A DNA stretch of 64,000 nucleotides from Prescottella sp. R16 (GTDB lineage: Bacteria > Actinomycetota > Actinomycetes > Mycobacteriales > Mycobacteriaceae), in NCBI RefSeq assembly GCF_030656875.1, contig NZ_CP130943.1:2356001-2420000 (forward strand), in the 5' to 3' direction. Position numbers and translations under genes: made by a program. This document shows, one piece after another, positions 1 through 29,666 of the stretch. The number at the start of each line of letters is the position of its first letter. Position 1 is the stretch's first letter. The notes below the pieces were generated by a model. The model was not told the origin of the DNA, made no database searches, and saw only the letters and a list, made by a program, of their open reading frames with translations.

Positions 1-8034
<8,034 letters not shown>

Positions 8035-23459: not shown

Positions 23460-23572
23460 ACCTCCTGTGAAGGTTTTATCGCCAGAATCGGGGGTCAGAC
23501 CGGAAAAGTCTCACTCGAATCTTCAACGATAGCGTCGAGGGACACCACCTCGAGAAGGAGTGTTTTCCGCCC

Positions 23573-24754
23573 ATGACGCTGTCGCTGTCCACTCTCGCCC
23601 GCCCGTTCGGCACCCCCACCGATCTGGCCCGCACCGTCGATGCCCTCCTCGCCGCCCGCCCCGAGCCGCCGACCCTGTTCGGGTTGGGGGAGCCGACCCA
23701 CGGGATCGCCGCTTTTCCGGCCCTGCGAGGCGATCTGCTCGCGCATCTGGTGGATCGCGGGTTCCGGTCGATCGCCCTCGAAATCGACTGGTTCGCCGCA
23801 TCCGTCGTCGACGACTACGTCACCGGGGGAGCCGGCGATCTCGACGCCGTCCTCGCGTCCGGGTTCAGTCACGGATTCGGTGCGATCCACGGCAACCGGG
23901 ACCTCGTGACGTGGCTCCGGGACCACAACACGGGACGCCCCACCGGTGAGCAGGTCCGGTTCCACGGCTTCGACGCGCCGGTGGAGTACGCGGCCGCCCC
24001 GAGTCCCCGACCTTTCCTGGCCGCCGTCGTCGACCGGTTGCCGGCACCGGTGCGTCCGATATCCGCAGACGATCTCGATGTTCTCGCCGGAGACGACGCC
24101 GACTGGTCGAATCCGGACGCCATGTACGACGCGGCCGCCTCGATCGGCGGTAGCGAACGGGCCCGGGCGCTACGCATCGTCGCCGACGACCTGGCCGACG
24201 CCGTCCACCGGGCCGGCACGAGCCTGCACGACCACTCCGGGGCGGCCGCGCATGCCCGCACCGCACACGGTCTGCTGCGCTATCACGCGGCCATGGCCGC
24301 CCCCGGCGACGACCGCATCGCCTCACTGCTCGCGGTGCGGGCGGAGATGATGGCCGAGAACCTGCTCGCCATCGCCGCCCAGGAGGTTCGACGCGGCCCG
24401 ACGCTGGTGTTCGCGCACAACGCCCACCTGCAGCGCAGCCGACCCGACCGGTCCACTGGCCACGAGAATGCCGGTACCCGCGTCGCCCGCGTGCTCGGTG
24501 ACCGGTATCTGATGGTCGCCACCGATGCCGCCGTACATCCCGAAGCGGGCACCCTGCAGGGCATGCTCGCGGCCGCCACCGATCGCCGCACCCTGTTCCC
24601 GGCCGCAGACCTGCACGATGCCCTACCCTCGACGCTCCGGGCCGGCACCCCGCTCGTCCCCGGCCACATCCCCCTCGATGCGGACGCCGTCGCCGGCGCC
24701 GACGCGGTCGTATTCGTCACCGACACCGACGGGCACCGGCAGCAATACTGGTGA
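23573..24754 (+). CDS. Erythromycin-esterase family protein
   Basis: 393 residues. Family features are FGLGEPTHGIAAF (Glu and His of the active site, about 37-47), IALEIDWFA (about 65), GFGAIHGNRDLVTWLRDHN (about 100-118), RFHGFDAP (about 129) and VFAHNAHLQRS (second His, about 283). The catalytic His/Glu set looks complete. The family includes macrolide esterases EreA/B but many members have other hydrolytic substrates. Transcribed from AAGGAG, divergent from the tandem MerR regulator. A drug-resistance role is possible, not shown. Confidence 0.88.
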   Translation: MTLSLSTLARPFGTPTDLARTVDALLAARPEPPTLFGLGEPTHGIAAFPALRGDLLAHLVDRGFRSIALEIDWFAASVVDDYVTGGAGDLDAVLASGFSHGFGAIHGNRDLVTWLRDHNTGRPTGEQVRFHGFDAPVEYAAAPSPRPFLAAVVDRLPAPVRPISADDLDVLAGDDADWSNPDAMYDAAASIGGSERARALRIVADDLADAVHRAGTSLHDHSGAAAHARTAHGLLRYHAAMAAPGDDRIASLLAVRAEMMAENLLAIAAQEVRRGPTLVFAHNAHLQRSRPDRSTGHENAGTRVARVLGDRYLMVATDAAVHPEAGTLQGMLAAATDRRTLFPAADLHDALPSTLRAGTPLVPGHIPLDADAVAGADAVVFVTDTDGHRQQYW

Positions 24755-24808
24755 TGCGGGGTCAGAACAGGGTCGGGCGGCACGGTCACCGATGTGAAAG
24801 GGACGATC

Positions 24809-24919
24809 ATGGGACTCGATTACGGATTCTTCGGCAGAGGCCCACTCGGACCGGTGGGGGACGCAATAGACATAGCGCTGTACTGGATCTTCACCGGTGG
24901 GCAGACGCCGCCCATGTAG
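24809..24919 (+). CDS. Micro-peptide gene, 36 codons (plus strand)
   Basis: ATG 24809 follows GAAAGGGAC with about 5-nt spacing, 54 bp after the esterase stop. The peptide begins MGLDYGFFGRGPLGPVGDAI and continues DIALYWIFTGGQTPPM. It is aromatic and hydrophobic, with a short membrane-compatible stretch. Its core G-P-V-G-x2-I-D-I-x2-Y-W matches G-P-I-G-x2-L-D-I-x2-Y-W of the peptide encoded on the other strand at 24947-25045, so the two look paralogous. Translation is inferred. I recognise no known family. Confidence 0.55.
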   Translation: MGLDYGFFGRGPLGPVGDAIDIALYWIFTGGQTPPM

Positions 24920-24946
24920 CCACTGTGAGCGACAGCGGTCCAGCAG

Positions 24947-25045
24947 TCATTTCCAGCTGCCGGGCAGGTGCCCGTAGGCCAGCCAGTAGTTCACGATGTC
25001 CAACAGGTTGCCGATGGGACCGAAGTAGAAGCTCCAGAGATCCAC
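24947..25045 (-). CDS. Micro-peptide gene, 32 codons (third in minus-strand tandem)
   Basis: GTG start (25043-25045) with AAGGGAG 8 nt upstream. The peptide begins MDLWSFYFGPIGNLLDIVNY and ends WLAYGHLPGSWK. It shares FGP(I)G and DI..YW with the plus-strand micro-peptide at 24809. The gene is 21 bp after the previous tandem member, so the three can be one transcript. It is strongly aromatic; membrane association is likely. Confidence 0.55.
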   Translation of the reverse strand: MDLWSFYFGPIGNLLDIVNYWLAYGHLPGSWK

Positions 25046-25066
25046 TCGCGTATCTCCCTTCCCGGC

Positions 25067-25147
25067 TCATCCGAATGTCCGGTACCACCATGCGATCACC
25101 GCCGTGACGGCGATACCGGGCGGTCCCCAGAATCCGGGATCCAGCAT
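25067..25147 (-). CDS. Micro-peptide gene, 26 codons (second in minus-strand tandem)
   Basis: ATG ending at 25147, with GAGAGGAGA 9 nt upstream. The peptide starts MLDPGFWGPPGIAVTAVIAW and ends WYRTFG. FWGPPG followed eight residues later by WW repeats the pattern of the neighbouring peptides, and the central segment is a short transmembrane-like helix. It lies 15 bp after the first tandem member. Confidence 0.5.
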   Translation of the reverse strand: MLDPGFWGPPGIAVTAVIAWWYRTFG

Positions 25148-25162
25148 CTCGATCGTCTCCTC

Positions 25163-25273
25163 TCAGGGGCAGTAGCCGCCCGCCCAGCACGGTGCGTTGT
25201 ACAGGATCCAGACGCGTACATCGTCGGGGACGAACCCGTAGGGCAGGAGCCACCAGATCGGCGGGAAGTCCAT
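25163..25273 (-). CDS. Micro-peptide gene, 36 codons (first in minus-strand tandem)
   Basis: ATG ending at 25273 preceded by GGAGGTGA, a near-perfect Shine-Dalgarno, at 6-nt spacing; this is the best translation signal of the set. The peptide starts MDFPPIWWLLPYGFVPDDVR and ends with two cysteines (NAPCWAGGYCP). It is aromatic like the others but lacks their GPxG. It begins 56 bp after the N-oxygenase stop on the same strand, so it is probably on the pap-aurF transcript. Confidence 0.6.
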   Translation of the reverse strand: MDFPPIWWLLPYGFVPDDVRVWILYNAPCWAGGYCP

Positions 25274-25329
25274 CCGAAATCACCTCCGACCAGAACCCGA
25301 CCTATGTGAACGGCACTCGTGGCTACCGT

Positions 25330-26313
25330 TCACCACGCGTACGGCACCTCGTCGGTGACGCCGAGGTCGTCGCACAGGCGGCGGATGGCGCTGCAGTCCT
25401 GGACGAGTTTGCGGCGTCCGGTGTCGTGGGCGGCGTCGGCGACCATTGCCGCCCCGTCCCGGACGTTTTCCGTCTCGAAGATCGTCGACCAGGTGGACCA
25501 GTCGTTCGCCTCGAACGCTTCGAGTCCGGAGGCCAGCCCGTCCAACAGGATTCGTCGATCATCGGGGCGGAGGCGTTCGTAGACGATGGTGAGGAGTTCC
25601 GCGGCGATCGACGAATGGCAGTATTCGTCGCGGCGGTGCAGCACCACCGTGGCCCGGTTCACCGGCTGCAGGTCCTCGTCGTCGGTCATCAATCCCAGAT
25701 ACGAGCTGATCGACGTTTCCGCGACCGTCGTGAACGCCAGCGACGTCAACGCCGCCTCCCGCGGCGACTCGGCCGCCGCGACCGCCGTCAGGTGCCGGCG
25801 CACCGTCGGCCCGTACGGCAGCCGCGCCTCCGGTAGCTGCCAGCCCCGCCGCCGCCGCGTGAGCGCACTCGCATTCAGGTGCATCAGCGTGTGGTACTGC
25901 TCGTCGACCATCGCCTGCAGCGTCGCCACCGTCAACGCGTCCCCGAGACCGGTGCCGAACGCGTCCTGCGACAGCAGCCGGAATCCCGGATTGACCACGT
26001 ACTGTTCGACGTCCATCACGTTCTTGTTGTAGGCGATCCACGCCCACGCCAGCAGCCGCGCCCGCACCTCCCCGTCGATCCGGGTGAATCGGTCGTCGGC
26101 GGCGAACGGGATCAACGCCACCGGATAGTCGTCCCGCCCCGGATCGAACAGGGCATCGAGATCCGGTTCCTGGTGTTTGACGGTCGCCCGTTTCGGCCAG
26201 CTGCGGCCCATCGCCCGGATCACCGCGCTCTCCGCCGGATCACCCGGATCGAACGGCGGCAGCGACGGCAACCGCAGCAGCGTCTCCTGCTCGGCTGCCC
26301 CGTCCCCGGTCAT
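25330..26313 (-). CDS. AurF-like diiron arylamine N-oxygenase
   Basis: 327 residues from the ATG ending at 26313, overlapping the papC stop as TGATG behind GGAGGAA. The seven expected diiron ligands are present with AurF-like spacing: E103 (VEQYV), E138 and H141 (DEQYH), E199 (VAETS), H226, E230 and H233 (HRRDEYCH). AurF and CmlI oxidise aryl amines to nitro groups. Coupling to papB-papA-papC implies a substrate carrying a 4-aminophenyl group, such as 4-aminophenylpyruvate or 4-aminophenylalanine or a product of these. The exact substrate is unknown. Confidence 0.88.
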   Translation of the reverse strand: MTGDGAAEQETLLRLPSLPPFDPGDPAESAVIRAMGRSWPKRATVKHQEPDLDALFDPGRDDYPVALIPFAADDRFTRIDGEVRARLLAWAWIAYNKNVMDVEQYVVNPGFRLLSQDAFGTGLGDALTVATLQAMVDEQYHTLMHLNASALTRRRRGWQLPEARLPYGPTVRRHLTAVAAAESPREAALTSLAFTTVAETSISSYLGLMTDDEDLQPVNRATVVLHRRDEYCHSSIAAELLTIVYERLRPDDRRILLDGLASGLEAFEANDWSTWSTIFETENVRDGAAMVADAAHDTGRRKLVQDCSAIRRLCDDLGVTDEVPYAW

Positions 26314-27169
26314 CACATTCCTCCGTCCCGCAACTGCTCGAACATCCCCGCGCACAGCTCCCGGTAGCCGGCGGCCCGGTCACCGAGCGGGGCGAGCGCG
26401 TCCGCCATCACCGCCGCGAACGCCGCCTCGTCACCGACCGCCCCCGACAGCCGGTCCAGCGCCCCCGCCAGGGCCTTGCGGGCGTCGGCGGCGGCCGGAT
26501 TCCTGGCCTGGATGTCGTGATACACCTCCGGGGTGCCCGAGCCGACCCGCGCCAGCAGCGCCGACAACAGCCGGTGCGGTGGGGGAGCAGTGGCCGCGAC
26601 CGTGCCCGGATCCGCGTCGAGCTCGGCGAGCGCCAACCCGAACGCCAGCACCACCGCATGGGTGAGCGCCTGCGTCACCGCCGTCACCCGATCGTGCTCA
26701 CCGGCCCCGACCCGCACCACCTGCGCCCCCCACCCGCCGACCCGGGTCAGGAACGCCTCCACCGACGGCCCACCCCGGTGCACGACGGCCGCCACCGGCC
26801 GCCCCGACATGCCCAGCGCCGGCGCGAACATCGGGTTGATCCCCACCGCCGGACGCCGCGCCGCACACAGCAGGTCGTGGATCCGGGACTTCACCGACAG
26901 CGTCTCCACCAGCAGCACCCCCGGCGCCAGCACGCCGTCGAGCACCGGGACCGCGGCGATCGCCACCTGCTCCGGCACCGCCAACACCACCGTGGACGAC
27001 GCCGACAGCACCGCCCGCACCTCCGCCGTCGGCGCCGCCACGTCCCCGGCCACGACGTTCTCGGCCGTCGCCCGGTCCACCACCGTCACCGGAGCCCCGT
27101 CGCCGCGCAACCGCTCCACGAGCAGCGACCCGACCGCGCCGGCACCACCGACCACGACGACCGGGCCGG

Positions 27170-27173
<4 letters not shown>
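26313..27173 (-). CDS. papC: 4-amino-4-deoxyprephenate/prephenate dehydrogenase (PapC-like)
   Basis: 286 residues from the GTG ending at 27173, whose GTGA overlaps the papA stop. A longer start at 27215 is possible but would intrude into papA. The N-terminal Rossmann motif is VVVVGGAGAVGS (about 5-16), followed by VVLAVPEQ, LLVETLSVKS, GINPMFAP and a C-terminal dimerisation helix bundle containing HAVVLAFGLALAEL. This is the TyrA fold. In papABC pathways it oxidatively decarboxylates 4-amino-4-deoxyprephenate to 4-aminophenylpyruvate. Confidence 0.85.
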
Positions 27174-29287
<2,114 letters not shown>

Positions 29288-29294
29288 GACGTCC

Positions 29295-29666
29295 TCACCC
29301 CACCACTCGCGGCGAGTCACCGCCCGACCCGATGACCACATCCTCGACCCGGCACGTCTCGGCGATCAACACGTCGTACAGCACACTCACGAACTCCGGC
29401 GACAACCCGTGCTCCCGCGCGAACCGCTCCGCCCGGGCATGCACCGCATCCACCCGATGCGGCTGCATCATCGGAATCCGATCCCGCCGCTTGACCTCCG
29501 CGATCCGCACACACACATCGACCCGGTCCCGCACCGCCTCGAGCAGTCGCGCATCGATCGCATCCAACTCGGCTCGAAGACCGGTGAGCGCCGGCTGCTG
29601 CACCGACACCGGATCCGTCACGTCCTCCGAGGTCTCGGCCCCCACAGGGCCCACGGTGTCGTCCAT
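29295..29666 (-). CDS. papB: Chorismate mutase-type (AroQ) 4-amino-4-deoxychorismate mutase
   Basis: 123 residues from the ATG ending at 29666, with GAGGTGG a few nt upstream; a longer frame to 29777 is not needed. The AroQ helical fold is seen in LRAELDAIDARLLEAVRDRV, CVRIAEVKRRDRIPMMQPHR and SVLYDVLIAETCRVEDVVI, including active-site Arg, Lys (AEVKRR) and the Gln/Glu region. In pap clusters this enzyme rearranges 4-amino-4-deoxychorismate to 4-amino-4-deoxyprephenate. It is the first gene of the coupled papB-papA-papC-aurF operon. Confidence 0.85.
   Translation of the reverse strand: MDDTVGPVGAETSEDVTDPVSVQQPALTGLRAELDAIDARLLEAVRDRVDVCVRIAEVKRRDRIPMMQPHRVDAVHARAERFAREHGLSPEFVSVLYDVLIAETCRVEDVVIGSGGDSPRVVG

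Follow-up and report, generated by a model that had tools for sequence, protein, structure and literature searches.

A 64,000-nucleotide stretch of the Prescottella sp. R16 chromosome, hereafter the window, holds four open reading frames (ORFs) of 26 to 36 codons directly behind a pap-aurF gene cluster. The locus raises the question of whether ORFs this short are genes and, if so, whether they serve the nitro-forming pathway beside them or have a role of their own.

Four micro-ORFs behind aurF

When the sequence was re-read, the four ORFs, gaps and Shine-Dalgarno strings given in a preliminary description of the window were all present (Table 1). Three ORFs form an array on the minus strand, with gaps of 15 and 21 bp, and follow aurF, which is on that strand too, at a distance of 56 bp. 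The fourth, on the plus strand (24809-24919), is immediately 3' of an erythromycin-esterase-like gene. The pattern G-P-x-G ... (Y/W)W was found, as described, in three of the four peptides, which have aromatic residues, G-P-x-G and then a hydrophobic stretch with W. The remaining peptide, encoded nearest to aurF (25273-25163), is of a different, Cys-containing type with a C-terminal P-C-x5-C. Its ribosome-binding region gave a calculated duplex of -17.7 kcal/mol with what we take to be the 3' tail of the 16S rRNA. An inverted repeat noticed by eye (GTGAACGG-12-CCGTTCAC, window 25307-25334) lies over the aurF stop codon and directly upstream of the minus array; it could be a terminator or an operator.

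Table 1. Features of the window locus and ORFs of a third micropeptide class at other loci.
Feature	Position	Strand	Remarks
C-type micropeptide gene, 36 aa, MDFPPIWWLLPYGFVPDDVRVWILYNAPCWAGGYCP	25163..25273	-	ATG start; first of minus-strand array
GP-type micropeptide gene, 26 aa, MLDPGFWGPPGIAVTAVIAWWYRTFG	25067..25147	-	ATG start
GP-type micropeptide gene, 32 aa, (M)DLWSFYFGPIGNLLDIVNYWLAYGHLPGSWK	24947..25045	-	GTG start
GP-type micropeptide gene, 36 aa, MGLDYGFFGRGPLGPVGDAIDIALYWIFTGGQTPPM	24809..24919	+	ATG start
Ribosome-binding region of C-type gene, GGAGGTGATTTCGG-ATG	25274..25293	-	
Possible remnant of recurrent array leader, GGTCAGAACAGGGTCGGGCGGC	24760..24781	+	by eye; cf. TAGCCTGACCTGACAGGGTCGG at other arrays
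aurF, p-aminobenzoate N-oxygenase family	25330..26313	-	Pfam AurF E 3.7e-52; neighbour, outside system
Erythromycin-esterase-like gene	23573..24754	+	Pfam; neighbour
Third-class ORFs	L034:2045-2164, 2440-2520	-	remnants in L016, L021
Third-class ORF	L089:519-641	+	

The micro-ORFs belong to a two-type family

The four ORFs belong to a micropeptide family of two types, C and GP, that is restricted to rhodococci and occurs on chromosomes, on conjugative plasmids and in one temperate phage. Its peptides are aromatic-rich, 25-40 residues long and have no signal peptide; the C type carries the motif W-x-L-P ... P-C-x-L-G-G-x-C and the GP type the motif F-W/Y-G-P plus one helix. A DNA search of 61 genomes with a 571-bp stretch found similar pieces in eight, its own genome included. 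Several of the matches lay at unrelated positions within one genome, and most of the matching sites held more tiny ORFs of the same two types. The C profile matched in 11 of 14 Prescottella genomes, 19 of 401 genomes of the taxonomic family and four of 31 genera, and the GP profile in 7 of 14, 12 of 301 and four of 31, respectively; the peptides were found in Prescottella and three other genera of its taxonomic family only. At the order level (298 genomes) the C profile gave two matches, its own genome and one weak partial match (G058), and at the phylum level (296 genomes) its own genome was the single match. The G058 match, partial and without a ribosome-binding site, was judged spurious. 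Among the seven named loci are those of P. subtropica, P. defluvii, Rhodococcus hoagii AcN21-7, R. qingshengii and R. tukisamuensis.

Across the loci retrieved, the profiles matched 92 ORFs at E<=0.05, and 82 of these (54 C and 28 GP) also at E<1e-5; many of the sequences matched had also served to train the profiles. These 82 ORFs fell into 34 clusters, 20 with at least two genes and 16 with both types. The "cluster of four" that was originally described is therefore better seen as one variable array of a large family. The view that the peptides fit no known family held in that none of the four window peptides had a Pfam match. A PDB sequence search gave no significant chain, and open-licence papers, among the matches listed, contained nothing on these peptides.

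The individual window genes have close relatives elsewhere. The C-type protein is identical in P. subtropica (G005), with one synonymous DNA change. The 26-aa gene has a copy at an unrelated locus of G013 that is 92% identical over 118 nt, the likeness spanning from 33 nt upstream to 4 nt beyond the stop, and the 32-aa gene has a counterpart, MDPYGIWFGPIGNLLDIVNYWLTYGHLPG, elsewhere in the G013 genome. Relatives of the plus-strand 36-aa peptide are found on the pVAPA, pVAPB and pVAPN plasmids and on the SGAir0479 plasmid.

Three further observations were made at other loci. ORFs of a third micropeptide class, VP-x-W-[LY]-Y-x-x-[LV]-Y-Q-x-W-L, have strong ribosome-binding sites and lie near C-type genes. 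One of them is on L089 (NZ_JARXVG010000032.1), a 5.8-kb contig filed as Variovorax boronicumulans that carries a typical rhodococcal array and is probably a contamination of that assembly. In G152, a GP-like ORF beyond the reach of the profiles (L070:1389-1478, minus strand; MLDLELFVGEPFATMIRVAVAWLVSVGVL) lies directly downstream of a C-type gene and is possibly another C-then-GP pair.

The short frames are under purifying selection

The micro-ORFs are real genes whose frames are under purifying selection. Codon-level conservation, a check already suggested for the short frames, gave a dN/dS of 0.22 and differences by codon position of 59/37/123 over 18 non-overlapping pairs from different contigs. 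These pairs were chosen greedily, at equal length and at least 60% identity, from a set that excludes ORFs with E>=1e-5 or a start other than ATG or GTG. Between distant pairs the 60% floor makes for a lower ratio, but it does not create the result, since 24 synonymous and 13 non-synonymous differences were counted in the nine closest pairs by themselves. Over all pairs, which are not independent of one another, pS was 0.53 and pN 0.15. In four of five control frames pS was below pN; the fifth, antisense +1 (pS 0.25, pN 0.09), mirrors the codon phase of the real frame and carries its signal in weaker form. Chance ORFs are ruled out by this selection on the frame and by the recurrence of similar ORFs at unrelated loci in other species. 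The description of the window ORFs as paralogous, aromatic genes is borne out.

The translation signals of the peptide genes were strong. The anti-Shine-Dalgarno duplex had a median energy of -14.7 kcal/mol in 69 peptide genes, compared with -10.5 in 114 long genes and -5.2 in 1334 random small ORFs. This comparison is circular in part: a Shine-Dalgarno filter had been used to pick the seed ORFs, and starts were set by the best Shine-Dalgarno, a choice also given to the long genes but not to the random ORFs. The set used for this comparison and for peptide composition comprised ORFs with E below 1e-6, ATG or GTG starts and at most 42 aa, with duplicates removed. Start regions (-35 to +25) were less structured than those of long genes, with medians of -15.7 and -19.8 kcal/mol, respectively. 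Short Trp/Pro-rich ORFs with strong ribosome-binding sites could also be regulatory leader peptides that act by attenuation or arrest on neighbouring genes. We disfavour this explanation as very improbable, as the ORFs occur in arrays, on both strands and beside unrelated genes, and their amino-acid sequence is kept.

Arrays of small cassettes

Between copies at different loci, similarity was confined to about one ribosome-binding site and one ORF. Gapped alignment gave 11 non-syntenic pairs from different loci with an identity of 85% or more, some of which share a member or are mutual orthologues. The downstream limit of similarity lay from -18 to +4 nt relative to the stop in nine of them and at +19 and +37 in the other two; the upstream limit lay 1-37 nt before the start in nine and at 72 and 135 nt in two. 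In an 83% pair (gapped) the upstream similarity ran for 205 nt, with the downstream end still near the stop. A separate, ungapped comparison of flanks left out four contig pairings that were regarded as syntenic. The end points of similarity indicate a unit of about one ribosome-binding site and one ORF, sometimes with upstream sequence, and we infer that the genes move as cassettes of approximately 100 bp.

A common promoter-like leader, GGTCTAGCCTGACCTGACAGGGTCGG, stands at the head of several arrays, ahead of an intact or broken C-type ORF, and the arrays contain decayed copies. A scan for the leader motif with at most six mismatches found no copy in the window, which may at most hold part of an array leader before the plus-strand gene. 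Same-strand neighbours within 100 nt were ordered C then GP in 13 cases, C then C in 13, GP then GP in five and GP then C in three, counts that include near-duplicates (G298 and G310 are identical there) and that, like the clusters, leave out 10 of the 92 ORFs (those with E>=1e-5, and G058). Of the gaps counted, which were those of at most 100 nt, 21 of 34 measured 9-30 nt. In P. subtropica, the array encloses a DDE transposase gene. Prophage residence was considered for the G001:C28 array and rejected, its four scanned neighbours being SNF2, GmrSD C-terminal/HNH, shikimate dehydrogenase and APH genes. Taken as a whole, the micro-ORFs almost certainly constitute a real and mobile gene family.

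The arrays are not tied to the pap-aurF pathway

The preliminary description had tied the peptides to the papABC-aurF genes, as might be expected of subunits, a scaffold or a product of a nitro-forming pathway. The minus array indeed follows aurF at 56 bp in P. subtropica as in the window. In P. subtropica, a 393-aa gene, of the same length as the esterase-like gene of the window, also occupies the same place beside the array. However, the AurF family was present in 14 of 14 Prescottella genomes, with two to six matches each, whereas arrays adjoin aurF in two of the 14, the window genome and P. subtropica. In each of the remaining 12 genomes, approximately 5 kb downstream of the orthologous pap-type aurF revealed neither the esterase nor any peptide gene. 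At least six weak tblastn matches (E 5e-4 to 7e-4), among those listed, fell in three of these 12 stretches; they are short or badly aligned, and we take them to be chance. An array of G012 is on the same contig as aurF, 9.4 kb apart, and three aurF-bearing genomes (G004, G010 and G011) had no peptide profile match. Other arrays are near PucR, ECF sigma, LysR, DUF222-HNH, SNF2, GmrSD and other unrelated genes, and aurF was absent from the plasmid and phage stretches examined. The proposed tie to the pathway therefore did not survive; as a general function of the peptides it is refuted, and we give it scarcely any credence.

Two observations concern the neighbouring genes themselves. The genes upstream of aurF, a glutamine amidotransferase-chorismate-binding fusion (27170-29341, minus strand) and a prephenate-dehydrogenase-like gene (26313-27215, minus strand), fit a papABC-like pathway, and the presence of such an aurF throughout the genus suggests a genus-wide nitro product. 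Erythromycin-esterase-like genes are near arrays both in the window (23573-24754) and in G013 (L016:6543-7346), which may be a coincidence or a shared island.

Plasmid copies

Tblastn identified GP-type genes in 36 plasmid records, 35 of them from P. equi, and two C-type queries matched 28 and 5 plasmid records. On the SGAir0479 and pVAPB plasmids, the peptide genes lie between a recombinase gene and parB, and the annotated neighbours on the fetched plasmid stretches are replication, partition, recombination and hypothetical genes. The GP gene was present in 25 of 26 P. equi plasmids with at least 95% identical ParB; the exception, CP027795, which is of the P. equi backbone type, has another annotated ORF at that place. 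In the PLSDB table, which is incomplete, no feature was recorded under the match in 32 of 36, 28 of 28 and 27 of 27 records for three queries, and three of five records list hypothetical proteins at the match for the fourth.

Both flanks of the peptide genes are common to pVAPA and pVAPB (87% over 226 nt and 96% over 639 nt), but the enclosed C-type genes come from different subfamilies. The part in which the plasmids differ starts 27 nt upstream of the C start in pVAPA and 107 nt upstream of it in pVAPB, and extends as far as the start of the GP gene that follows. To judge from this alignment, the C cassette is swapped between the two plasmids inside conserved flanks. The pVAPN plasmid has a third C-type, likewise followed by a GP gene.

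Phage copies

No phage or plasmid genes were recognised among the scanned neighbours of the window array, which is chromosomal. Members of the family occur in the genome of Madraxi, a Rhodococcus phage. There, the ORFs for MFDLPFWGPLAPVVIAVVNVLDWFGVW and MDFGFFGRGSLGAFGTAIDAVIWWFVTGGQLMPGVF overlap (TGATG) and are antisense to genes annotated as structural (late), with a hairpin after the last micro-ORF (-24.5 kcal/mol, 50-nt fold). A third ORF, of 30 aa, lies upstream on the same strand and is preceded by a leader that resembles, by eye, the chromosomal array leader. Over the stretch from -12 of the start to +2/+3 past the stop, the first Madraxi cassette shares 87-89% identity with the copies on pVAPB and SGAir0479; against the chromosomal G001 copy, a similarity of 78% runs on into the second ORF.

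The Madraxi genome has serine integrase and repressor genes, and the phage is presumed temperate by its authors (PMC11955845). Its relative Jflix2, described as temperate (PMC13313380), has the 30-aa ORF and lacks a 1,080-bp segment with the other two. The 30-aa ORFs of the two phages differ by codon position at 5/3/11, and that of Jflix2 matched the GP profile weakly (E 0.045). The two phages thus present what would be expected of exclusion cargo, namely a separate antisense cassette on a temperate phage that varies between relatives. No micropeptide ORFs were found in a 9-kb stretch of REQ1 or an 8-kb stretch of Shagrat.

One GP query gave one match against 50,697 phage records. Two C queries gave none that were convincing; the first had zero matches and the second matched 24 records, with no Rhodococcus phage and E values of at least 2 for those listed. 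IMG/VR yielded none, one matched stretch being without a fitting ORF at the match and seven further stretches without a 20-60-aa ORF that matched the profiles.

Two annotations in Madraxi deserve comment. A longer opposite-strand ORF, gp4 (L128:4725-5138, minus strand; hypothetical protein), overlies the micropeptide ORFs in the annotation and was probably called in error. In addition, gp3 (L128:5169-5960, minus strand; record 1301-2092), annotated as a minor tail protein and located in the segment absent from Jflix2, has a signal peptide, HC and GDSGGP, and we presume it to be a secreted trypsin-like serine protease.

The peptides are tiny, hydrophobic, multicopy and accompanied by decaying copies, and they are encoded on chromosomes, in a temperate phage and on plasmids between a recombinase gene and parB. 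These are also traits of type I toxin peptides such as Hok, Ldr and Fst, which are tiny, hydrophobic and multicopy on plasmids and chromosomes. The genes could accordingly be plasmid or prophage addiction toxins, kept for maintenance of the element, whose products damage the membrane unless the mRNA is silenced. Unlike Hok, Ldr and Fst, the genes here form tight multi-gene arrays, in which gaps mostly of 9-30 nt leave little space beyond the ORF for an antisense RNA per toxin. Their start regions are open, so that the ribosome-binding site is not sequestered (-35 to +25), no antitoxin gene recurs among the neighbours scanned, Rfam gave no match in window 23500-26500, and the P. equi backbone plasmid CP027795 does without a peptide gene. 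We therefore consider an addiction function unlikely, albeit still a serious candidate.

Peptide properties and a possible role at the cell envelope

The distinct C peptides are 29-42 aa long, with 21% aromatic residues and 11% Trp, and 42 of 44 have exactly two Cys. The distinct GP peptides are 24-39 aa long and 20% aromatic, and 22 of 23 have no Cys. Mean net charge was -1.18 for C and -0.87 for GP, and was positive in two of 44 C and in none of 23 GP peptides. Compared with shuffled sequences, GP peptides had a mean helical amphipathicity z of 1.15, and the C type showed no helical amphipathicity (z -0.38). AlphaFold2 modelled GP as one helix (residues 14-29, pLDDT 72) and C as two (5-9 and 17-26, pLDDT 73), both models being of moderate confidence and built from 13 and 9 sequences.

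It is fairly probable that the two types form an envelope-associated system. Expressed from a prophage, a plasmid or a chromosomal array, the peptides would act at the cell envelope, GP through one short hydrophobic helix behind the GP turn and C through two short helices and the Cys pair, with a variable C peptide often encoded ahead of a GP partner. Either the element that carries them or its host would gain an accessory benefit, and the envelope may be altered against competing phages or plasmids. Exclusion or defence as that benefit is argued from gene placement: genes found on phage, plasmid and chromosome alike that are under selection, are exchanged and decay, and whose phage copy is antisense to the structural genes and followed by a hairpin, match what such cargo would look like. 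We regard this step as possible, though rather doubtful. Accessory envelope-associated micropeptides of mobile elements that serve in exclusion or defence are nevertheless our best, if tentative, reading of the family as a whole. The fit of exclusion is only slightly better than that of addiction toxins or of secreted leaderless peptides.

A precedent for such cargo is known from actinobacteriophages. Sbash gp30 and gp31 are lysogenically expressed defence genes for which defence was shown, and gp31 is a membrane protein with four predicted membrane spans and a partner protein (PMC6426596). The likeness to the system described there lies in cargo genes on a temperate phage, one membrane member being present in Sbash; unlike gp31, the peptides of this putative cargo have 25-40 residues and come in arrays.

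Leaderless secreted peptides, surfactant or antagonistic and exported by a transporter encoded elsewhere, are a further explanation. Staphylococcal phenol-soluble modulins and multi-peptide leaderless bacteriocins have 20-45 residues and, like the peptides here, lack a leader and are encoded by tandem genes, each with its own (here strong) ribosome-binding site, some on mobile elements. The spread of the family over mobile elements, its fast turnover and the two Cys of nearly all distinct C peptides, which suit an oxidising, extracytoplasmic place, agree with this explanation. The peptides here differ, however, in being acidic and Trp-rich, with two types of which one has a Cys pair. Most membrane-attacking bacteriocins are not negatively charged, and the cationic character of leaderless bacteriocins was found in next to none of the peptides (two of 44 C and none of 23 GP, as above). 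Moreover, the 37 neighbours scanned, which are a part of all neighbours, included no recurrent gene for a transporter or for immunity; single MFS transporters lie 2-6 kb from peptide genes at two places. We regard secretion of this kind as decidedly unlikely.

The peptides might instead form channels in the mycomembrane. Corynebacterial PorA, PorH and PorACur, of approximately 37-57 residues, are similarly small and acidic, are encoded in tandem pairs and belong to mycolic-acid bacteria of the same order. PorACur, of 37 aa, has been modelled as an amphipathic helix (PMC5944148), and the GP helix is amphipathic as well. Nevertheless, the Pfam search with the four window peptides and the PDB search found no sequence relation to these proteins, the R. 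corynebacteroides and R. ruber channels described in one report are of the MspA-like family (PMC9233653), and the peptides here differ in their Cys pair and their mobility. Ser is absent from 19 of 44 C and 13 of 23 GP peptides, and therefore Ser mycoloylation cannot be general. A channel would also not obviously need mobile, swapped cassettes, and we consider this explanation improbable.

Returning to the exclusion or defence reading, a more specific and distinctly speculative form of it is that arrays of interchangeable cassettes of approximately 100 bp, each with one ribosome-binding site and one gene of 25-40 codons, are a new kind of mobile cargo. A variable C peptide would pair with a less variable GP peptide in the envelope, and a C swap would change specificity against phages, plasmids or rival cells, as is suggested by the occurrence of three C-types on the P. 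equi plasmid types.

Significance

The window array belongs to a conserved, selected and mobile gene family that has largely been missed by annotation because its genes are so short. The family offers a testable rhodococcal system in which two-type micropeptides are common to phage, plasmid and chromosome, and in which natural cassette swaps already serve as experiments. If the exclusion reading is true, these would be very small defence genes, with a bearing on phage use and plasmid ecology in rhodococci.
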